NCBI GenBank assembly: GCA_949297285.1
Contig: CASFRL010000135.1
Location: 1-41,840, forward strand
Reading direction: 5' to 3'
Length of the DNA stretch: 41,840 nt
Origin: an uncultured Bacteroidales bacterium
GTDB lineage: Bacteria; Bacteroidota; Bacteroidia; Bacteroidales; Coprobacteraceae
Shown: piece by piece, positions 30,912 to 41,754 of the stretch
Numbering within the stretch: position 1 is the stretch's first letter
Layout: every line of letters starts with the position of its first letter
Position numbers and translations under genes: made by a program
Notes under the pieces: generated by a model
The model's database searches: none
What the model was told of the DNA's origin: nothing
What the model saw: only the letters and a program-made list of their open reading frames with translations

Positions 30912-30957
30912 AAAAAATCAGCGGAATGCATATTCTTTCCGAACAGTATTCCGCTGA
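30912..30957 (-). terminator. Terminator of the 31-41 kb polysaccharide-type operon
   Basis: On the minus strand TCAGCGGAAT and ATTCCGCTGA form a perfect 10-bp stem with a 20-base loop that can pair further inside. A six-base T-run follows. It starts 17 bases past the stop of the beta-helix lipoprotein gene. Confidence 0.8.
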
Positions 30958-30973
30958 AAAAATGCGCCTCTTC

Positions 30974-32680
30974 TTATTCTGCAGTGCTGCGAACAATATG
31001 AAGCGAAACTTTTATATATGGCGTATCACCTTGTCCAGACAAACCTTTATAAACATTCTTGACTACACGAAAACCTTCAGGGACAGAAACTGTACAAAGT
31101 TCTGAAATATCCGACCCATGACCGTCTCCAGCGATCCATGCCGCTCTTTCAGCATCGCTAAACGAAGTCCATGTTTCTTCTGATACCCACAACCAGACTT
31201 CATAAGTGTAATCGACCTTTTCCGAAAGATTCTCAACACCCGAGACAGTAATCTTCAAGTTCTGTTCCGTTATTTTAATACCGGTAAGCGACTCGACTCC
31301 ATCTTCTACCTTAATATTTTCCTGATACTGCCCATTGACACGTATTGCAAAATCATCAGCTTTCAAGAACCACTCTTCTTCAATACCATCAGGAATTTCA
31401 AGGACAATTTCTTGGTCTATATCTGTATCCGGATCAGAAAATCCCGGATTGCACACATCATCAAAGTCCGAAGCGTTAATTTCTACGCCCTTTATATTGA
31501 TCAAGTCTGTACTAACCTCTATTTCATTATCAACCAAAGCTTTACCAGGACCTACAAGAACATATTTATTTGCTACACCATACCCAATATAAGTTTTTTG
31601 ATAATTCAAATAAAACCGAGAGTCGATATTAAACATATCCTCTTTCGAATCCATACGAAAATTAACACAGTCGATCAGCGCATTGCCCTCTCCTACAATA
31701 TTGAAATAGACACCCCCATCCTTTGGATAGATATTGGAGAAAGCCGCAATACCTCCGGCACGTAAATTAACTTGCGATGACTCAAGAAAAGCATATGAGG
31801 AAAGCGCCCTCATATCAATATAATCAGCGTTCAAAGTAGAAGATGAAACGTTGAGCTCTCGATTAACGACCATTTTACAATCAACAAGCAAATTAGAGGC
31901 CTTCGTCAATATCACATTTTCAGCCGTTAAAGTACCCTCAACGCAAGCAATAGCATTGTTACTAAACTTAATCTGGTCTGCATAAACATCATTTGTTTTT
32001 TGTTTAAAGTTACCTATAACATGCAATACAGCCAATTTATGTACAGAAGCTGTCTTGTCAGCAGCAAAAGAGCCACAAACAAGATCTCCGGCAACATACA
32101 TTTTGCCATCTTTCAACTCAAGATTTCCCGAAACATTAAAATCTCCAGCCACTTTTATAACGGCATCTTTAGCTATGGAAACACTGGCATTGGTTATCTC
32201 TAATGTTCCATAACATAACAAATAAACATTAGAAATATTTTTTCCGGAAAACACCATTTTCCCACCCGGCATAACGGTAATGCTGGATGTTTTAGCGATA
32301 TCTGAGTTAATGCGTAATGTTCCACCAGATGAGACGTAAAGATTCATACCATCATATTTGTTCTCATTATCTATCACCAATTCACCGGAAACCTCAAGGT
32401 AATTATCCCCTGCCGGAATTTCAGACGGCGCATCTTCCATACTCAAATTTCTGGCTTCATTAGTAAATAAATCCGACTTCCCCCGAAGAATACTCATCGG
32501 CTTCAACTGTGAAGCGGCATTATTGCCAATCATAAGGGATGTATTATTAGAAAACAAGACAAAATTCTTGCCTATTGGAGATATAGGATCCGTATATGTA
32601 GCACTTAAGAGTTCATCTTTAGTATTACATCCGGCCAATATCAAACACGAAACGATGCCAAACAATAAAAATTTTCTCAT
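30974..32680 (-). CDS. Beta-helix-like lipoprotein of unknown function
   Basis: 568 residues from ATG at 32680; the frame is open further upstream, but only this start gives a classical lipoprotein signal (MRKFLLFGIVSCLILAGC, lipobox Cys18). From about residue 95 to 310 the sequence is a run of short strands with turns every 18-25 residues (for example GGTLRINS, GGKMVFSGKN, YGTLEITNAS, GDFNVSGNLELKDGKMYVAG), as in right-handed parallel beta-helix proteins that bind or modify polysaccharide. The C-terminal 170 residues look like one or two beta-sandwich domains with an acidic linker (PGFSDPDTDIDQEIVLEIPD). No catalytic residues or named family are recognised. It follows the DUF1573 gene by 126 bases with no terminator between, so it is probably the last gene of the operon. 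Confidence 0.7.
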   Translation of the reverse strand: MRKFLLFGIVSCLILAGCNTKDELLSATYTDPISPIGKNFVLFSNNTSLMIGNNAASQLKPMSILRGKSDLFTNEARNLSMEDAPSEIPAGDNYLEVSGELVIDNENKYDGMNLYVSSGGTLRINSDIAKTSSITVMPGGKMVFSGKNISNVYLLCYGTLEITNASVSIAKDAVIKVAGDFNVSGNLELKDGKMYVAGDLVCGSFAADKTASVHKLAVLHVIGNFKQKTNDVYADQIKFSNNAIACVEGTLTAENVILTKASNLLVDCKMVVNRELNVSSSTLNADYIDMRALSSYAFLESSQVNLRAGGIAAFSNIYPKDGGVYFNIVGEGNALIDCVNFRMDSKEDMFNIDSRFYLNYQKTYIGYGVANKYVLVGPGKALVDNEIEVSTDLINIKGVEINASDFDDVCNPGFSDPDTDIDQEIVLEIPDGIEEEWFLKADDFAIRVNGQYQENIKVEDGVESLTGIKITEQNLKITVSGVENLSEKVDYTYEVWLWVSEETWTSFSDAERAAWIAGDGHGSDISELCTVSVPEGFRVVKNVYKGLSGQGDTPYIKVSLHIVRSTAE

Positions 32681-32806
32681 AAAATAAAAATTTAATGTAA
32701 ATACCATAAAAAACTTTTTCCCCCGGTTCTTCTCTTTAAATACAAATAATCTTATCACCTTCATCATTTATTAAAATATCATATTAAAATTTATACTGTA
32801 CAAATA

Positions 32807-33364
32807 CTATTCTTCCCGCCACGGATAAGGATTTTGGGCACGGCTATCATGAGCCGGATTATCTACATAATACCCTTTTTCCGACTCATCCCCATCAATA
32901 AGTCCTCGTATCATATTGCTTCTTTCCACTTCTTCTTTATAAAGCTCCTCGTAATCACGCGTATAATCCGCATTAGGAACAACATTAACGTCAAACTTCA
33001 ACTTCACAATCCCCGTGGGTTTAGCATTACAATGGATTCGAATTGTATGCTCTACAAAGCCGATGTTCTTAGCACTCTCATATTTAAACAATAACCTTCT
33101 CTTTTTCCCCGGCATAATCATCCGTGACTTCAGTTCAGGAACAATGCACCCACACGAAGGCTGTATTTCACGAATGACAAGCGGCTCCTTCCCGGTATTT
33201 TCTATTTCAAACGCCAAGTTAAGAATCTGTCCGGTTATAACCGGATAATAATGACGTACCGAATCTGCTACCGAAACTGTAGTCCAGCCGATCCGCTCAT
33301 GACATCCGGAAAACGACATAATACACAACAAAAGACTTAACGTCATAGTCACTAATGTTCTCAT
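32807..33364 (-). CDS. DUF1573 domain lipoprotein
   Basis: 185 residues. The signal ends in SFSGC (Cys21), a lipobox. The body is one Ig-like DUF1573 domain: LNLAFEIENTGKEPLVIREI, then the family motif PSCGCIVPE (Cys71 and Cys73), then PGKKRRLLFKYESAKNIG and FVEHTIRIHCNAK. A charged tail of about 50 residues follows (YEELYKEEVERSNMIRGLID). DUF1573 proteins are common in Bacteroidota with no settled function; the fold resembles ASH/MSP Ig-like adaptor domains. The start lies 4 bases after the DUF4838 stop, so it belongs to the same operon. Confidence 0.85.
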   Translation of the reverse strand: MRTLVTMTLSLLLCIMSFSGCHERIGWTTVSVADSVRHYYPVITGQILNLAFEIENTGKEPLVIREIQPSCGCIVPELKSRMIMPGKKRRLLFKYESAKNIGFVEHTIRIHCNAKPTGIVKLKFDVNVVPNADYTRDYEELYKEEVERSNMIRGLIDGDESEKGYYVDNPAHDSRAQNPYPWREE

Positions 33365-33368
33365 AATA

Positions 33369-35498
33369 TCAATATAATTCTATTTCATCGCATGCCACCA
33401 TACAACGATCCCTACCATTCCGCATTATACGCACTTCAAAAGGAGTCGACTTATCAATTTCTGAAAGTTTCAAGATCAGCCGGTACTTCATAAACGGTCG
33501 TTTGTCCATATCCTGATCAAAAGACATCCTGCTTAAACGCTTTCCCGACTGCCACACCTCTACAAAATCGGGCAATACTATACGCCACCGGGGAGCATAC
33601 ATAAAAGAAAGTTTCAACCGCTGACCGTCCCTGGCCTTGCCGGACGGAATCTCTACACTCAACTCATCGGAAGAAGCAATAAGCCATCCTGTATGATAAT
33701 CCGAAGGAAGAGCATAAAATCCATCAGTAAGCACCGACATATCCTGATAGTCTTCATCCGGCTCATATTTCGGGGTAAGGACAACGCCTCGCAAAGAATT
33801 ACGAGAAGCCGAATTTTCATTTTTCAAAGACTCCCATTCTTCGATATAACGGTCAATAGAACCTTCAACTTCACGATAATTATGCATGCAGTCAAAAGCA
33901 CCATGTCCCTGTAACGACTCTAAACAAGTCTCGATCACGGCATGATCATAAACGCCATGAGGCATACGTTGCAATTCAAGACGAGTAAATTGCAATGCCG
34001 TAAGCAACTTATTGAGCCGAATGCGTTCTTCATCAGATATAGCTTTAGATTTTTTATCAAGATCATGACAAAACAGCTCAAACTCTCCCGGATCTAACCA
34101 CGACTTTACAGCATCGGCAATACCTCCATAAAAAGGCAAGATTACATTATGGCTGCAAGCCTTATGTTCCCAACAAATATAATTTTCAGCAAGCATTTGT
34201 CCAGAAATCGGATAATAACGGCATATACACCGATATAGATACTCATCAATATTTAACTCCGGATTAATCAGCATATTAGCAAGAGTTACCGTCTGCACAT
34301 CGTCAAACGAAGCATAATCTGGTCCGCTACCGTTAAAAAACACACCGCTAACACCAAGAGAAAGGAAATAACGTAAACGCTTTCCGATCATATTCAGACA
34401 AGGATAAGGGGTAAGATAATCATCAAAATTACGCATATAATCCCATACATACACTCGATCTGTAATACGTCGCCATTGATTTACTAATTGCGAAAAGCGC
34501 CTGACATTTGCAGACTCCACCGGCACTTCCCTCCGCATAGGAATATCCATTGCACTGATTATCACACCGGCATTAGACGGCAAACGACCCGACGGAGCCG
34601 AATAAGTCGAAAGATATGCCGATGTAAAAAACAAATGATTGGGAAACCGGTCGGCCAAACGCCGCAACAAATACGTTACTGCCGGAGTAGCAGACTCTGA
34701 TGTATTGCCTTTTTCCTTACAAGCAGGACACATGCACACAAGGTCGTTATCATTAGGCATAATGGCAAAACGGACAAGTTCCTTTTCAGTTTCCCCTTCA
34801 CCATAATTATCAACGACATAAGAGACAAGCGCATTATAAAGGTCCTCTGAAGAAAAACAAAATTGTTCCGAATTGCGTTGTCCATTAATTACAGCCCGCA
34901 CATTTTCAGAGATACCATCCGTAAAAACACATTGCAAATTGTGCCCCCACAATCCCCAATCATAATCGACATTATGGGATGCCATAATCGACATCATATC
35001 CTGATTCGAGTTAGCAAGTGTATATATACCCCTATACTCAAATGCAAAATCACCCTTCGCATTATCCATTTTTATCATAGCCGGGGGAAGATCTGAAACA
35101 TCAATCCGCTTATCATTAATCGCTGACATAAACTGATAAATAAGCCATAGCATTTTCGAATCATCCCGAGCGACAAGATGCAGGACATTTCCATCTCGCG
35201 TCACAGAATAATCATGAGAATAACTTCTATCTACATGCAACAACACTTTCAACAAATTATCCGTGTGCGGGTTTTCCATTACTGCAACAACGTCACCTCC
35301 TGCACGGCGATTGAGATGAGTCGACAAATAATCTGCCCAACGAACATCCGCCATAGTGTCCGTTTCCGGAATCACCCAATAAACATCAATTGTCGCAGCA
35401 ATCCGAGAACAACCAGCAAATTGCAGCAAAGCCAAAAGAAGACATAGATGCACTTTCAGTCTATGATTAAAAATAAATATATAATTGCAAATGCACAT
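33369..35498 (-). CDS. DUF4838 lipoprotein, glycoside-hydrolase-like
   Basis: 709 residues. The N-terminus ends in LLLALLQFAGC with a lipobox at Cys30. Residues ~35-140 resemble the alpha/beta domain that precedes the barrel in GH20/GH67-type enzymes (LHLVARDDSKMLWLIYQFMS). The central region matches DUF4838: FEYRGIYTLANSNQDMMSIM, a Cys255/Cys257/Cys260 cluster (VCMCPACKEKG), and RVYVWDYMRNFDDYLTPYPC. The C-terminal ~120 residues look like a carbohydrate-binding type beta-sandwich. DUF4838 has no proven activity that I can name. A barrel enzyme or binding protein acting on polysaccharide is an inference. The start overlaps the 3' end of the TPR/YaiO gene by 32 bases. Position and lipid anchor parallel PgaB. 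Confidence 0.75.
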   Translation of the reverse strand: MCICNYIFIFNHRLKVHLCLLLALLQFAGCSRIAATIDVYWVIPETDTMADVRWADYLSTHLNRRAGGDVVAVMENPHTDNLLKVLLHVDRSYSHDYSVTRDGNVLHLVARDDSKMLWLIYQFMSAINDKRIDVSDLPPAMIKMDNAKGDFAFEYRGIYTLANSNQDMMSIMASHNVDYDWGLWGHNLQCVFTDGISENVRAVINGQRNSEQFCFSSEDLYNALVSYVVDNYGEGETEKELVRFAIMPNDNDLVCMCPACKEKGNTSESATPAVTYLLRRLADRFPNHLFFTSAYLSTYSAPSGRLPSNAGVIISAMDIPMRREVPVESANVRRFSQLVNQWRRITDRVYVWDYMRNFDDYLTPYPCLNMIGKRLRYFLSLGVSGVFFNGSGPDYASFDDVQTVTLANMLINPELNIDEYLYRCICRYYPISGQMLAENYICWEHKACSHNVILPFYGGIADAVKSWLDPGEFELFCHDLDKKSKAISDEERIRLNKLLTALQFTRLELQRMPHGVYDHAVIETCLESLQGHGAFDCMHNYREVEGSIDRYIEEWESLKNENSASRNSLRGVVLTPKYEPDEDYQDMSVLTDGFYALPSDYHTGWLIASSDELSVEIPSGKARDGQRLKLSFMYAPRWRIVLPDFVEVWQSGKRLSRMSFDQDMDKRPFMKYRLILKLSEIDKSTPFEVRIMRNGRDRCMVACDEIELY

Positions 35499-38406
35499 TG
35501 TATAAATTTCTATATTCAGTTTTTACCAATTCATTATAATTCTTAAGCGTTCCCTGCCGTTGATTAAGCTGACTATAAAAGGTATGCCATGTCCCAGTAA
35601 GACCAACAGAAAGATGCTCATTAAACATATACACACCACCCATACCGACCATCGTATTAAGTCGGTCAAATGCCCCCGGCATAGCATAATCTATCATATT
35701 AGCTTCCGGAGCTGTACCCAGACCTGCAGAAACAGACACACTCGTATATCCATCTTCAAGCAAAAAATATTTCAACTGGGTAGAAGCGTTGAAATACGGA
35801 TTAGCAGAAAAAAGAAAGCCATCGATTTTTCCTCCAAGCAAAAGGTTGTTCCAAGTTTTCGATGCACCTACTCCCAAAGTAAAGAGATTACGATCATTCT
35901 TGTTCCACCCGTCAAATGTCCATCCTTCCTCCCATCGAAAATCTTTAGAATAAACTGGAATACGCCTATAATTAGCATGCACATCAAGAGTTATGTCCCT
36001 CTTAAATTCATGGGAGATTCTTGCATCGGCCATGACCTTTGGAAAATACTTATTAGACAACGCAGCAGCAAGCGCGCCAGTCCATCGCTGAGAAAAACGA
36101 TGTTCCCACTCCACATAAAGTTGCACACCTTGCCCTCCGGGAACCTGGTCTTCAGGATCATCTCCCGTAGCACTGCCGTCACGACCGGCATAATTAATGC
36201 GCCCAGTATAAGAATTCTTTTTGCCCCTATAAGTATAGGACAACGACGCAACACTCGTTATAACATCAGCCTCGCCATACCTTCCCCGCAAATACTCTGC
36301 TGACAACACGTTTTTCAAGACCTTATTCTGCAATCCATCCAAATGCCTCATAAAATCGGCAGACTCTGTAATACCGGGAACATAATGCCGCTGATAATAA
36401 TATGCAGAATCATACTTGTGCATCGCTTCATATACCTGCCCCTTTACCAATAAAAGTGATGGATTTTTAGCATCAAACAACAAGGCAGTATCTGCAACAG
36501 CCAAAGCCGAATCAAGCTTATGCTCCTTCAGGAGCTGAAGAGCTTTCATCTCGCTATTCTCTGAAAACGCACCGATCAAGCCTTGATTATCGGGATAATC
36601 ATTAAGCCATGGACGTACCATATCTATCGAACGTTGATATTCTCCCATCCGATGATAAGAAGATGCCATCTTCACCACATAAACAGTTTCTTCAGGATAA
36701 ATAGCTCGTGCTTTAGCAATATAACGGTCATACTCTTCATAACGATTTAGCATATCTGCCGTATTGATAGCATACCATAATCCATCTATCGACGAAGGAT
36801 TATAATGAAGCAGCTTGACACTTTCTTCAAAAGCCTTTTCACTGGCCCCTTTTTCTATCAGCCCCTTAATATAAGGTACAGCCATCTCTTCATAAGAAGA
36901 AATATAGGCTACCCGCATCTCTACCACCGTCGTGTCCGCCAATACCGAATCTAAAACAGACAATGCGACAAGAGTACTATCTTGAGCATTCAAAATATCA
37001 GCCTTTTTAATAAAATATGTGCCATCCTCAGGATAAATGACATGCAAGGAATCCAACATGACCATGGCCTCGTCATAACGTTTCAGTTCATAATAACACG
37101 CATAAGTTTTACTTAAGGCAGCCGACCTCACATCTTTGTCATAACTGCTCTTGACTGCAGCCGTGAGATACGGCAACGCCTCGGAATAAAAGCCATCGGC
37201 CATAAGATTGCCGGCTTGATGCAAACGGAGCATTGCAAGCTCATCGGCAAGATCAATATCCGTCGGGTTCATGCCTACAAGAGTAGATAAAATAGAATAA
37301 GCCTTATTTACATTACCCATCCGTTTATAAACGACATATTCCTTATAGAGCCACGACGACTGTTCTCCATAACGTTTTTTCGCTTCAGACAGATACCATA
37401 AAGCATCTTCATTATACCCACGTTGAATCGAAGTATTAATCAGATAATCAAGGGCTTCTTTACTTTTTGTCTGTTCATATAACTGACCATAAAGTAAATA
37501 CGGATCATTCAGTTTGGCTGCATTGGCAGCCTCGGCAAGCAAATTCTCATTGAATCGGATTAAACGAGGATTCTTATTATATTTCATACGTGATCGAACA
37601 AATGCAATAGCTTCTTGATAACGCCCTTCCTCAATCAATATCTCAGCTTTTTTTATCACAAGCTCCGAACTACGAGGTATATTAGACACTCCTGCCCCAA
37701 TTACCTCAAGAGCTTTTTCAGTGCTCCCTTGCTGTAAAAGCAAATTAGAAAGAGCCATATAATAATCCTCATTGTCAGTAACAACAGAAAGAAGATCATT
37801 CAAATACCGTATCGCCGCAGAAATATTCCCCTTTTTACGTTGTTTGACATAATTCTCTTCAAGACTATATGCATACTCATTACTCACAGTAGAATCATTG
37901 GGATATATTTGATGAAGACGTTTAAGCAAACGATCTGCCTCTACATCATTACCCTGCTTCCTATACAATCCTATTTTTTTTCGCCATAATCCTTGCCAGT
38001 ACGGATTTATTTCAAGCAATTCATTAACATAACAAATTGCACTCGAATAATTTCCACTCTCATCCTCCACATTAACTAACATCTGTTTGGCCGTAACATT
38101 TTCAGGATTATCACGCAACGACCTCACCAAAAAATAACGGGCCTTATCATAATCTTTCCGATATTGATAATAATAACGTCCCAAAAGTTCATTCAAACCG
38201 CTCACATCAGGATAATGCTTCATTCCTTCATCAAGTATGAGTTTCCCAGAATCCCACTGACCAGATTTAAACATAGCACGAACTTTTACCTCATAGTAAT
38301 CAGGGGTATGTACCTCTCGTCTATCGTCAAATCCACAGAGTGCATATGCACCCATAAAGCACATAAGCACAACGAAAACGGAAAGTAAATAGCCCTTCAA
38401 CTTCAT
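35467..38406 (-). CDS. TPR protein with C-terminal YaiO-like outer-membrane barrel
   Basis: 979 residues with a signal peptide (MKLKGYLLSVFVVLMCFMGA). Residues ~35-690 are tandem tetratricopeptide-type helical repeats (for example GRYYYQYRKDYDKARYFLVR, AICYVNELLEINPYWQGLWR, DEAMVMLDSLHVIYPEDGTY). Residues ~700-979 are an amphipathic beta-barrel of the YaiO outer-membrane family (SYTYRGKKNSYTGRINYAGR; the protein ends in alternating aromatic strand NVHLQLYIYF). TPR plus barrel in one chain is the architecture of PgaA and BcsC, which guide a polysaccharide through the periplasm and out. It overlaps the glycosyltransferase gene by 4 bases (ATGA). Export of the polymer made by that enzyme is the natural inference. 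Confidence 0.85.
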   Translation of the reverse strand: MKLKGYLLSVFVVLMCFMGAYALCGFDDRREVHTPDYYEVKVRAMFKSGQWDSGKLILDEGMKHYPDVSGLNELLGRYYYQYRKDYDKARYFLVRSLRDNPENVTAKQMLVNVEDESGNYSSAICYVNELLEINPYWQGLWRKKIGLYRKQGNDVEADRLLKRLHQIYPNDSTVSNEYAYSLEENYVKQRKKGNISAAIRYLNDLLSVVTDNEDYYMALSNLLLQQGSTEKALEVIGAGVSNIPRSSELVIKKAEILIEEGRYQEAIAFVRSRMKYNKNPRLIRFNENLLAEAANAAKLNDPYLLYGQLYEQTKSKEALDYLINTSIQRGYNEDALWYLSEAKKRYGEQSSWLYKEYVVYKRMGNVNKAYSILSTLVGMNPTDIDLADELAMLRLHQAGNLMADGFYSEALPYLTAAVKSSYDKDVRSAALSKTYACYYELKRYDEAMVMLDSLHVIYPEDGTYFIKKADILNAQDSTLVALSVLDSVLADTTVVEMRVAYISSYEEMAVPYIKGLIEKGASEKAFEESVKLLHYNPSSIDGLWYAINTADMLNRYEEYDRYIAKARAIYPEETVYVVKMASSYHRMGEYQRSIDMVRPWLNDYPDNQGLIGAFSENSEMKALQLLKEHKLDSALAVADTALLFDAKNPSLLLVKGQVYEAMHKYDSAYYYQRHYVPGITESADFMRHLDGLQNKVLKNVLSAEYLRGRYGEADVITSVASLSYTYRGKKNSYTGRINYAGRDGSATGDDPEDQVPGGQGVQLYVEWEHRFSQRWTGALAAALSNKYFPKVMADARISHEFKRDITLDVHANYRRIPVYSKDFRWEEGWTFDGWNKNDRNLFTLGVGASKTWNNLLLGGKIDGFLFSANPYFNASTQLKYFLLEDGYTSVSVSAGLGTAPEANMIDYAMPGAFDRLNTMVGMGGVYMFNEHLSVGLTGTWHTFYSQLNQRQGTLKNYNELVKTEYRNLYNVHLQLYIYF

Positions 38407-39881
38407 GATACGCCTCCTACACCACTATTTTCAAAAATATGTTCCTTTCTAACCTTTCGATTCCTCTTACGAGAAGTAAACCCTTTACGAGTCATTTCTC
38501 CCCAAACCGCACGTTTGCGGAAAATATAATTAAAATAGCCTTTTATAGAGAAAAATATGACAAACGGATGAAATATGAACGGCTCAAGAATCGCTGCACA
38601 AAAAATCCACATATAAGATCGGGCTTTTTTAAATGTCCCTCCGAGAGTGTAATCATAAAATAGAACAACCATGGCAAGAATAAGGCAAAAAGTATAAATC
38701 CCCAAAAAAATTACGATGGCCGACTGCCAGTTTATTGCCCCTGTAAAAGCATGATAAATAAATACAAAAAGACCTATAAACTCAATGATAGGAGCAAGGA
38801 ATTCAAAAATAAACACATACGGGAGCGTTATCATGCCAAGTTGTTTATAATTACGATTAAATAAAAAACGACGATGCCGTACAAAAGTCTGAATCAAACC
38901 ACGTCCCCACCGCGTACGTTGGCGGTTAAGAATTTTCAGCGTAGAAGGCATCTCTGTCCAACAGCAATTAGCAGCAACTTGTACTACACGATACTTTCTC
39001 TTAAAATCACAACAATACCCTACCATCCGTATTATCATATCCATATCTTCAGCCAACGAGTCACCGCTATATCCGCCAGCTGCAATAACCACACTCTTGT
39101 CAAAAAGGCCATACCCTCCCGAGACATTAGGCATGGCATTTATAGTAGACCAGCCCATCTTTCCCACGAGGAAAGAACGCATATATTCCAGCGTTTGGAA
39201 AAGAGCCCAAAACGAATGCGGAGGATGCCTCTCTATTATCTTTCCGTCTTTTATCTTACAACCATTAGAGGCTGTCATCATTCCACTGACCGCTATTACA
39301 TCGTTCGATTCCAATATAGGTTGAATACATTGCGTTATCGCATCCGTAGCCAAAATACAGTCAACATCGGTATTAATAAAATAAGGATAAGACGAAGCAT
39401 TAAGCCCGGCATTGACAGCATCAGCTTTCGTACCCCCATTCTCTTTATCGACAACGATAAGATTTTTATACTGCGAATTTGTAGATTTGAACAACCTTTT
39501 ATACGGTTTAGTATGTATATATTCAACGTATGCAAAAGGCACTTCTACAAGCGAAAAGTTTTCGATAAGCGTTTCAAGGGTTTTATCACGACTTCCATCA
39601 TTAACAATAACCACTTCAAAAAGAGGGTAGTCCTGGCCAAGCAAAGAATTAACATTCTCCACAATCGTTCGTTCTTCATTATATGCAGGAGCTATAATAG
39701 AAACCCCGGGTGTATAAGGACTAGTGTCTATCATATACTTCGCATATTCAGGTATATGATGAAACTTTTTCCGAAAAATACCGATCTCGGCCAATATCAT
39801 TAGCAGCACATAAGAAATGACAAGCCCCATGCTATAAAAAAATATAACATAGCCATAAAAATATAACACTAAGTCTCCCAT
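38403..39881 (-). CDS. Processive family 2 glycosyltransferase (PgaC/chitin-synthase like)
   Basis: 492 residues, an inner-membrane polysaccharide synthase. Topology: one N-terminal helix (about 9-33), the cytosolic GT-A domain (about 58-330), then at least three C-terminal helices. Motifs by position: Asp95 in NDGSRDKT, KAD at 152-154, the DxD motif Asp172-Asp174 in NTDVDC, the catalytic base region AED at 277-279, and QRTRW at 321-325, which marks processive synthases such as PgaC, HasA, NodC and BcsA. No PilZ domain is present. The order of helices around one GT-A domain fits PgaC best, hence a beta-linked homopolymer of N-acetylglucosamine or a related sugar is likely but unproven. The start overlaps the HEAT gene by 13 bases. 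Confidence 0.9.
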   Translation of the reverse strand: MGDLVLYFYGYVIFFYSMGLVISYVLLMILAEIGIFRKKFHHIPEYAKYMIDTSPYTPGVSIIAPAYNEERTIVENVNSLLGQDYPLFEVVIVNDGSRDKTLETLIENFSLVEVPFAYVEYIHTKPYKRLFKSTNSQYKNLIVVDKENGGTKADAVNAGLNASSYPYFINTDVDCILATDAITQCIQPILESNDVIAVSGMMTASNGCKIKDGKIIERHPPHSFWALFQTLEYMRSFLVGKMGWSTINAMPNVSGGYGLFDKSVVIAAGGYSGDSLAEDMDMIIRMVGYCCDFKRKYRVVQVAANCCWTEMPSTLKILNRQRTRWGRGLIQTFVRHRRFLFNRNYKQLGMITLPYVFIFEFLAPIIEFIGLFVFIYHAFTGAINWQSAIVIFLGIYTFCLILAMVVLFYDYTLGGTFKKARSYMWIFCAAILEPFIFHPFVIFFSIKGYFNYIFRKRAVWGEMTRKGFTSRKRNRKVRKEHIFENSGVGGVS

Positions 39882-41212
39882 AAGCCATCACCATTTATTA
39901 TCGGATTTTCCACATGCTCAAAAAGGATATGATCCTTTGCGACTGCAGATTCTTTAAGAGTATCGAATATAGAACGTCCCTCTTTACCCGAAAGCCACAA
40001 GCAACGCAATGCCGTACGCCGGGTATAATCTGACGATGGAGTCTGATACACTTCAGCATAAAATTGAATACTTCGTCCAGAATTCATCGCTAACAAAGCA
40101 TTAAGAATCGTACGGCGCAACATTTCGGTTTGTTTATAAAACAAATTTTTCAATGTTTCTTCGACCGGCACATAACGCCTTATACCCATACACTCGAAAG
40201 CTGTTCGACGGAATTCGAAATCAAAAGAATCAAAATAACTTATAATATATTTCAATTCTTTTTCATTGCCCCAATATGCCGTTTCCCGCATCAAAAATAT
40301 AGTCATATCACGATTTTCGGAAGACTGCAATATGGGAACAAACTTAGGTAAAGCACGACCGCTTTTGTATATCTTACCGAATATCTCATGAGTTTCAATT
40401 TTATCCCACAAAGAAAAATACGAACCCTCTACCATATCGATAGCGAGCCTCTTTTCTTCAAAAAATACAAACGGATCTTCTTTGGATGTAAGCATATAAT
40501 AAATTCTTGCCGATTTACGCAACGCCGGATCCTTATCATTGACTAAACGTGTTACAAGGCTATTGGGTAATTGCATATTAGTCAAGCGCACAGCTTGAAG
40601 AAGTCTCACTTTACGCCTTTGTGCCCCAAAAATAAGGTTTTGCTCGACAAAATCAGTAAAACCTATAAGATGCATTATACGTTGAATATTGGTAAGATTA
40701 GGATTAGATGTATTAGTAAACTGGCATAAATCCACCAGCAATCGCGCCCAAATTCTCATTTGCCATGCACGCCAATTTTTTTTTCTATAATCCAGTCTCC
40801 TACTGATCTCCTCAATCGGAAGGTTCTTGACCTCTGCAGAGCAAACACTTTTCATTTTCTCAAAATACCTTTCTCTTATCTGCTCATAAAACCGTTTAGT
40901 CCGTTGGGTACGATACACATCTATAATCATCGCTATCAAAACAAATAAAAAACCTGTAATGCAACCCAAGATAACACCATAAGCCACACGAACAGCCCAA
41001 GGATAACCAGCAAAAAGATTAAGAAAACGATAATAATGGTATCGCAATATACTCCACCCCCAAAGTTCATACGTATGATTAATCGGGGAGTATTCTATAT
41101 GCTCATTTACAGCTATTGAATCGGTAAAAGCCGGACTTGTCTCAGCCGAATGTGCGACCCAAACATTACCTATGGCAAATACAATAACTAAACACAGCAA
41201 GATCCGCACCAT
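39869..41212 (-). CDS. Membrane protein with cytosolic HEAT-like repeats
   Basis: 447 residues from ATG at 41212 (MVRILLCLVIVFAIGNVWVA), chosen because it gives a signal-type N-terminus; the frame is open for 51 more codons upstream with no matching signal. A periplasmic stretch of about 50 residues is followed by one membrane helix at about 74-98 (VAYGVILGCITGFLFVLIAM) and a basic stop (RTQRTKR). The remaining ~345 residues are helical HEAT-like repeats (SLVTRLVNDKDPALRKSARI, FEFRRTAFECMGIRRYVPVE, RRTALRCLWLSGKEGRSIFD) predicted to face the cytosol. It is the first gene of the operon and overlaps the glycosyltransferase by 13 bases, so the two proteins probably form a complex. It has no known homologue in the Pga or Bcs systems. 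Confidence 0.8.
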   Translation of the reverse strand: MVRILLCLVIVFAIGNVWVAHSAETSPAFTDSIAVNEHIEYSPINHTYELWGWSILRYHYYRFLNLFAGYPWAVRVAYGVILGCITGFLFVLIAMIIDVYRTQRTKRFYEQIRERYFEKMKSVCSAEVKNLPIEEISRRLDYRKKNWRAWQMRIWARLLVDLCQFTNTSNPNLTNIQRIMHLIGFTDFVEQNLIFGAQRRKVRLLQAVRLTNMQLPNSLVTRLVNDKDPALRKSARIYYMLTSKEDPFVFFEEKRLAIDMVEGSYFSLWDKIETHEIFGKIYKSGRALPKFVPILQSSENRDMTIFLMRETAYWGNEKELKYIISYFDSFDFEFRRTAFECMGIRRYVPVEETLKNLFYKQTEMLRRTILNALLAMNSGRSIQFYAEVYQTPSSDYTRRTALRCLWLSGKEGRSIFDTLKESAVAKDHILFEHVENPIINGDGLWET

Positions 41213-41684
41213 AACAGTATCTTTTTCTTTCTGTAATTTATTGCAAAACACCTTTATAATAAAGACTGGTTTATTACTTTTTTTTAATTTCACACAAATT
41301 ATCAATACAATATAAACATCCGGAGCAACAACAAAGTTTATAACGATCACAAACTCCTCATACAAAAATTAATTTAGACCATAATAAACTAATCATAGAA
41401 AATTATATCACTTAATAAAAAATACGATGATTTTCAATAACTTTTTTAGCTCTCGTCAATACGGGCAATTTGAGAATAATATAATATAAAAATACAGGAG
41501 CCTTTAGAAAAACTATTTGCATTTCGTAAAAATAAATTCACAATTCATATAATAAACTTTGCAAATTATAAATTTACAATTTGTGAAAATATCCCGGAGA
41601 CTGTTTAGAGCCAACCGAATAAAAGATCAGACAAGAACCATTTAGGAGGGGGGGAGGAAAAGGATACAGCAATTCAGAAATAAT
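41213..41684. other. Gene-free, AT-rich leader of the polysaccharide-type operon
   Basis: About 470 bases lie between the first operon gene and the pckA terminator. No protein-like reading frame is seen. A search on the minus strand for an exact TAnnTTTG -7 element found none; near misses (ATAATTTG) occur around 41296 and 41562. A 22-bp palindrome lies at 41562-41583 and a purine tract with seven G at 41648-41654. Confidence 0.6.
41562..41583. promoter_or_regulatory. Near-perfect 22-bp palindrome, candidate operator
   Basis: CAAATTATAAA and its mirror TTTACAATTTG pair with one symmetric mismatched base pair. It is nested inside a wider inverted repeat TTCACAA (41537) and TTGTGAA (41581). It lies about 350 bases before the HEAT gene. 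A protein-binding site is plausible; an RNA hairpin is also possible. Confidence 0.35.
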
Positions 41685-41730
41685 AAAAAATAGGCCTAAA
41701 AGTCTTGTTTGACTTTTAGGCCTATTTTTT
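41685..41730 (-). terminator. Perfect 20-bp terminator hairpin after pckA
   Basis: Arms 41685-41704 and 41711-41730 are exact reverse complements with a 6-base loop. On the minus strand the stem ends in a T-run, and the same holds on the plus strand. It starts about 25 bases after the pckA stop. Confidence 0.88.
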
Positions 41731-41754
41731 ATAAAGATATTATTCTAAGCCATA

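Follow-up and report, generated by a model that had tools for sequence, protein, structure and literature searches.

The window analysed here, a 41,840-nt stretch of an uncultured Bacteroidales bacterium (contig CASFRL010000135.1 of assembly GCA_949297285.1), carries between pckA (upstream) and sdhCAB (downstream) an operon of six open reading frames (ORFs) that very probably encodes a synthase-dependent exopolysaccharide machine with export through an outer-membrane pore. Computational support comes from the protein families encoded, a conserved gene order, co-inheritance of the genes, predicted folds and lipoprotein sorting signals. The locus would work like the Pga, Bcs and Nfr systems but falls outside all three by score. 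An earlier note on this DNA had proposed a synthase-dependent polysaccharide system distinct from both Pga and Bcs; the proposal was supported and withstood both observations that the note had named as capable of refuting it, namely genes found mostly apart in other genomes and a synthase clustering with non-processive enzymes. The features of the unit are as follows:

39869-41212, minus strand: HEAT membrane protein, 447 aa; signal-like N-terminus, ~50 aa outside, one transmembrane segment (TM, ~72-95), then a HEAT solenoid, probably cytoplasmic
38403-39881, minus strand: processive family 2 glycosyltransferase (GT2), 492 aa, inner membrane; D172xD, A277ED, Q321RTRW; one N-terminal and three C-terminal TMs
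35467-38406, minus strand: outer-membrane exporter, 979 aa; signal, ~16 tetratricopeptide repeats (TPRs, 35-696), predicted 14-stranded YaiO-type barrel (697-979)
33369-35498, minus strand: DUF4838 lipoprotein, 709 aa, predicted periplasmic; GH115/GH84-like TIM barrel; conserved D250, C255-x-C257-xx-C260, W352-D353-Y354
32807-33364, minus strand: DUF1573 Ig-like lipoprotein, 185 aa, predicted periplasmic
30974-32767, minus strand: last gene, a fast-evolving surface-type lipoprotein; weak G8/beta-helix similarity; C-NTKDE after the lipid cysteine, resembling a lipoprotein export signal
30917-30958, minus strand: operon hairpin terminator
41684-41731, minus strand: pckA terminator, the upstream border of the unit

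The location, order, overlaps and small gaps of the six ORFs were checked directly and agreed with the earlier description. The HEAT and GT2 genes overlap by 13 bases, the GT2 and TPR genes by 4 (ATGA) and the TPR and DUF4838 genes by 32, followed by a gap of 4 bases between DUF4838 and DUF1573 and one of 39 bases before the last gene, or ~126 if counted from an internal methionine (MRKFLLFGIV...), which is its likely translation start. The single terminator said to close the unit was found as a hairpin with a 10-bp stem, a T6 tail and a fold z of -2.85, which a simple terminator scan overlooked because its loop is 20 bases long.

The GT2 matched its Pfam family with 79.9 bits (cut-off 23.3), and its D172VD, A277ED and Q321RTRW motifs, together with the 1+3 arrangement of TMs, are those of a processive synthase. 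The D, DxD, xED and QxxRW motifs are retained in nearly all GT2s of the wider HEAT-GT2-YaiO family described below, and the full set is absent from the non-processive references ArnC, WcaA and YaiP. The best characterised match was PgaC_IcaA (3.6e-33), and a profile built on the window clade scored E. coli PgaC at 77 bits versus 5 to 24 bits for YaiP, WcaA, BcsA, ArnC and NfrB. Motifs and profile scores thus place the enzyme among processive-type GT2s, closest to PgaC, and the clustering with lipid glycosyltransferases was not seen. It nevertheless scored 115.1 bits against a cut-off of 422.3 for the PgaC equivalog (TIGR03937) and 27.2 against 699.1 for BcsA (TIGR03030); at 492 aa it has no C-terminal domain and no MshEN fusion. 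In a quick GT2 tree, with 39 unlabelled rows left out of the count, DUF4838-bearing loci formed one group relative to the E. coli references, and the smallest support-starred branch holding all of them contained 24 rows, three without DUF4838. Placement of the E. coli references in this tree is not trusted because their branches are very long.

That the third protein combines periplasmic TPRs with an outer-membrane barrel was recognised both by Pfam matches (TPR_19, 5e-30; YaiO, PF19413, 4e-9, 37.2 bits, cut-off 23.9, covering positions 19-105 of 173) and in its AlphaFold model, where ~33 TPR helices are followed by 14 strands (pLDDT 85.7); in one relative, the YaiO model was wholly covered (150 bits). 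The modelled barrel (697-979) superposes on FadL/TodX, CymA and OmpG (Z 19-21); PgaA and BcsC were not among the structure matches listed, which excludes nothing. The exporter reached 30.1 bits for the PgaA equivalog (TIGR03939), whose cut-off is 366.65. PgaA and BcsC barrels have 16 strands, unlike the 14 predicted here.

At the level of fold, the operon also supplies a predicted periplasmic polysaccharide-modifying enzyme with a conserved putative active site, the DUF4838 protein (PF16126, 120.8 bits, cut-off 26.6). Its model (pLDDT 89.7, pTM 0.86) consists of an N-terminal domain and a TIM barrel as in glycoside hydrolase (GH) families GH115, GH84, GH67 and GH20, which also gave the best structure matches (Z 13-17), while a sequence search against the PDB returned no match. 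Comparison of 18 DUF4838 proteins from exopolysaccharide loci with 23 others revealed residues invariant in both sets (R156, H186, C214, D250, C255, C257, C260, Y295, N309, W352, D353, Y354 and Y429, with one exception at most per site among the 18), of which D250, where strand 4 ends, and D353, on strand 7, are candidate catalytic residues. Residue 185, in contrast, is glycine in 18/18 of the exopolysaccharide-locus proteins and valine in 22/23 of the others, and the former are likewise set apart by score (1e-41 or better versus 3e-36 or worse, contig-end pieces aside).

DUF1573 was assigned with 68.8 bits (cut-off 26.1). The beta-helix previously attributed to the last gene could not be established, its sole basis being a sub-threshold G8 match (22.0 versus 22.9). 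In Bacteroides, lipoproteins whose lipid cysteine is followed by CS(D/E)2 are sent to the cell surface (PMC6222051; first described in PMC5080379). All 12 last-gene relatives carry two to three acidic residues at positions +2 to +6, and the corresponding means were 0.4 for DUF4838 and 0.1, with lysines, for DUF1573. On these residues, one surface lipoprotein (the last gene) and two periplasmic ones (DUF4838 and DUF1573) are predicted.

A scan of one genome per species found the GT2-TPR-DUF4838-DUF1573 order in 11 other contigs (Paraprevotella, Prevotella and Bacteroides records), with GT2 identities to the window of 72-77%; this recurrence is more than chance. The complete HEAT-GT2-TPR-DUF4838-DUF1573 set was present in 9/11. 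HEAT is absent or cut in the other two (L040 and L041), where the contigs begin within the unit, and it is the first gene in every close locus whose contig extends to it; the order HEAT-GT2-TPR/YaiO-DUF4838, singled out earlier as the one to check, is therefore kept as far as the contigs allow. A form of the last gene occurs in seven of the 11 loci, sometimes in tandem. Paraprevotella clara YIT 11840 is a carrier of the operon (locus L032). Mean identities to the window across recovered ORFs were 74% for GT2, 66% for DUF1573, 59% for TPR, 51% for HEAT, 49% for DUF4838 and 32% for the last gene.

Among 393 Bacteroidales genomes, close GT2s (E<1e-130) were found in G000, G184, G294, G221, G023, G063 and G003, and close DUF4838s (E<1e-100) in G000, G221, G023, G063, G301, G294 and G003, the remaining DUF4838s scoring 3e-36 or weaker. 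In G184, DUF4838 is cut by the contig end next to the TPR gene; in G301 the contig stops inside the TPR gene, and G294 has DUF4838 on the same contig but in reversed orientation. A set of 295 Bacteroidia genomes gave four other DUF4838 matches at E<=1e-40, every one of them in a HEAT-GT2-TPR locus. Across the ~690 genomes sampled, close DUF4838 and GT2 homologues hence co-occur in essentially every genome that has them, the opposite of genes found mostly apart. No second processive synthase (next GT2 match 2.8e-8), close DUF4838 relative or last-gene relative was found in the window's own genome.

The HEAT_2 match of the first protein (PF13646) lies just below the cut-off (26.6 versus 27.7), with relatives at 42.4 and 38.4, and solved HEAT-type structures are among the matches of the family profile (the natural protein 6veh at 7e-14, alphaReps down to 3e-40). 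One relative, in locus L121, has a SPOR domain ahead of the TM. SPOR domains bind peptidoglycan, and because this one lies across the TM from the solenoid, the latter is probably cytoplasmic, on the side where the receiver protein and the active site of the GT2 would lie. For this reason, the HEAT protein looks like a regulator of the synthase. The earlier suggestion that it stands in the place of PgaD did not hold: equivalence is ruled out by size, a single TM with a small periplasmic part, the likely cytoplasmic solenoid and the L121 SPOR domain across the TM, and relatives have a response regulator as neighbour.

The five-gene set represents a single clade within a far larger Bacteroidota HEAT-GT2-YaiO family, with GT2 relatives (E<=1e-60) in 94 of 395 Bacteroidota genomes. 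The statement that no example of this exact gene set had been characterised thus stands in that no publication was found, but needs widening, as the set is only a part of that family; neither HEAT-GT2-YaiO nor a pairing of DUF4838 with a synthase was the subject of any paper found in the literature search, which covered few subscription journals, so that an earlier description is possible. In a survey of the neighbourhoods of 59 GT2 genes, HEAT immediately adjoins GT2 in 47 loci, 42 have a YaiO barrel no more than four genes away and 31 a receiver domain no more than five; the family profiles were grown on the same loci, so that in the most remote of them a weak HEAT or barrel assignment is less secure. 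HEAT is not adjacent where the contig ends, where a gene is split (one case) or fused (one case), in a different GT2 group that has another operon (L052, L053, L144, L145) and in two deacetylase-GT2 fusions (L054, L055). Stand-alone receiver genes (<=160 aa) made up 28/533 genes near GT2 versus 1/300 further off.

Loci such as L115, L122 and L127, with a response regulator and a sulfatase-fold enzyme, share the HEAT-GT2-YaiO core with the window, and DUF4838 is present in L115, L120 and L127 too. They differ in having a short TPR, a stand-alone receiver beside the core and sometimes a sulfatase-fold transferase fused to GT2, and in lacking the DUF1573 and surface lipoprotein genes that the window has. 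We consider it possible, though less likely than not, that the whole represents a phylum-wide secretion class in which the synthase is controlled by a membrane-anchored HEAT scaffold receiving a phosphorylated stand-alone response regulator, and not by cyclic di-GMP (c-di-GMP), the window clade being a branch in which the locus no longer includes the regulator but has acquired a long TPR, a dedicated glycosidase, DUF1573 and a surface polymer-binding lipoprotein.

Several further observations were made in this family. A sulfatase-fold (phosphotransferase-like) membrane enzyme lies beside GT2 or is fused to its C-terminus in 9/59 loci (among them L127:6608-10408, L130:6796-10374 and L131:7371-10805; separate in L122:12188-14221), which suggests a modified polymer in these lineages. 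A membrane-anchored protein of ~390 aa with no Pfam family, also in 9/59 loci, is found beside HEAT-GT2 where DUF4838 is lacking (for example L121:10236-11402, L125:9926-11095, L141:12661-13830 and L147:4038-5225) and may do the job of DUF4838. The second GT2 group (31-35% identity) has a constant neighbourhood of its own, with a ~515-aa TPR protein and a ~1050-aa single-TM protein lacking a clear Pfam family (L052:5094-9862, L144:3631-8429, L145:10173-14777), and is possibly another uncharacterised synthase system.

Among characterised systems, NfrBA-YbcH of E. coli, which makes the NGR glycan, is the nearest precedent, with a GT2, a TPR-barrel protein and one periplasmic accessory protein in one operon and no deacetylase (PMC8669469). 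Unlike Nfr, the locus has HEAT and DUF4838 and its GT2 is without MshEN; the clade profile barely detects NfrB (5.1 bits). With E. coli pgaABCD, which makes poly-N-acetylglucosamine (PNAG), it shares a processive GT2, TPRs with an outer-membrane barrel, a periplasmic carbohydrate enzyme and an operon of four to five genes, but it is below all Pga equivalog cut-offs, has no PgaD and adds HEAT and DUF1573. The cellulose (bcs) system likewise combines a GT2, a periplasmic glycosidase (BcsZ) and the TPR-barrel protein BcsC; the locus, in contrast, has no BcsB, and DUF4838 is not a BcsZ-type endoglucanase. Pfam matches of the six proteins included no carbohydrate esterase family 4 (CE4) deacetylase (Polysacc_deac_1), PilZ, GGDEF or MshEN; control from elsewhere in the genome is possible. 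PNAG, cellulose and Nfr membership were accordingly ruled out by these cut-offs and profile scores. The yaiS-yaiP-yaiX-yaiO cluster of E. coli K-12 (L179), annotated as putative only, also has a YaiO barrel gene near a GT2, but YaiP is without QxxRW and xED, yaiX is broken by IS2, and TPR, HEAT and DUF4838 are missing. A published survey of synthase-dependent operons names the same functional parts, including a c-di-GMP-binding subunit that is common but not universal, and its main text makes no mention of Flavobacteria or HEAT (PMC7112194).

From motifs and topology, the GT2 would build a chain from one or two kinds of nucleotide sugar at the cytoplasmic face of the membrane and thread it through its own TM region. 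Gene order and topology would place the HEAT protein next to it in the inner membrane, its cytoplasmic solenoid switching the synthase on and off, and in relatives the stand-alone response regulator probably docks on the HEAT protein. In the periplasm, the chain would be guided by the TPR superhelix and trimmed or released by the lipid-anchored, glycosidase-like DUF4838 enzyme, with DUF1573 as an accessory, before leaving through the 14-stranded barrel; outside, the surface lipoprotein may bind or anchor the polymer.

Three other explanations were weighed. A divergent PNAG machine, making the polymer of Pga with DUF4838 in the role of PgaB, is unlikely: PgaC_IcaA is the top characterised match of the GT2, PgaC is by far the best of the six E. 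coli references and the DUF4838 fold resembles the N-acetylhexosaminidases of GH84 and GH20 as well as GH115, but the PgaC and PgaA scores fall well short of their cut-offs, the locus has no deacetylase, and in other Bacteroidales a separate deacetylase-GT2 fusion protein exists outside the window GT2 clade (L054, L055). Much less probable still is a non-processive, GtrB/ArnC-like GT2 decorating lipid A, O-antigen or a surface protein, with the other genes as envelope accessories. The N-terminal part of the GT domain does resemble many GtrB-type and other family 2 enzymes, solved structures included; against this, nearly every member of the family keeps QxxRW and xED, the C-terminus forms a TM bundle, the barrel is a constant partner and PgaC is much nearer than ArnC or WcaA. 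The least probable alternative, by a little, is a glycan-degradation locus in which the barrel would take up what DUF4838 releases from dietary or host glycans. Such a role would suit the glycosidase-type fold and the location of most Bacteroidales DUF4838 genes outside synthase loci of this kind, but the operon has no SusC/SusD pair, and the DUF4838s of exopolysaccharide loci are distinct in score and in G185, bear no surface-export signal and travel with the synthase.

Some points weigh against a synthase-dependent exopolysaccharide machine. By Pfam, none of the six proteins is a c-di-GMP component or a regulator; the glycosidase assignment of DUF4838 is at fold level only; and the overall pTM of the exporter model is 0.53, so that the relative placement of TPR domain and barrel is not predicted. 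YaiO itself is not known to act in transport. The production of a polymer, what it consists of and how its synthesis is controlled belong to the inferred part of the model. Lastly, the nearest species, whose sdhA is 97% identical, lacks the locus: there, pckA and sdhC flank an equivalent gap with no trace of an operon remnant.

That gap holds two fimbrillin-like genes (Mfa_like_1; L192:7199-9926), one joined to a Mac-1-like peptidase domain (PF09028, 4e-19), with a G+C content of ~0.55 compared to 0.3-0.4 in the surroundings, and the pckA-sdhC gap is a variable site. Within the genus, one of four other species (G003) has a relative (45%); there (L046, G003:C190) the GT2 lies within a 909-aa open frame and an acyltransferase-3 gene follows DUF4838, a layout unlike other loci. 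With its absence in the nearest species and presence in one of four congeners, the operon is thus patchy, and it probably moves between lineages by recombination at a variable site. In Paraprevotella and one Prevotella metagenome-assembled genome (L033, L034, L035, L039), it adjoins sdhCAB too, but with sdh upstream. An inverted-repeat search for a phase-variable promoter upstream of the operon returned only the pckA terminator and weak AT-rich pairs, and four Bacteroides-type promoter matches (TTTG...TAnnTTTG) in the window, a count within chance, included none upstream of the operon. Neither Rfam nor PADLOC (defence systems) gave a match.

In the human gut and in many soils and seas, Bacteroidota are dominant, and most of the surface polysaccharides known from them are capsules of the Wzx/Wzy type. 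The wider GT2 family is present in about a quarter of the Bacteroidota genomes sampled, yet no paper on it was found. The domain of unknown function DUF4838, too, is here placed in a defined context and given a putative active site. If an exopolysaccharide is made, gut commensals, Paraprevotella among them, would possess in it a matrix or surface polymer whose genes form a simple set open to deletion or reconstitution, with a candidate phospho-signalling control.

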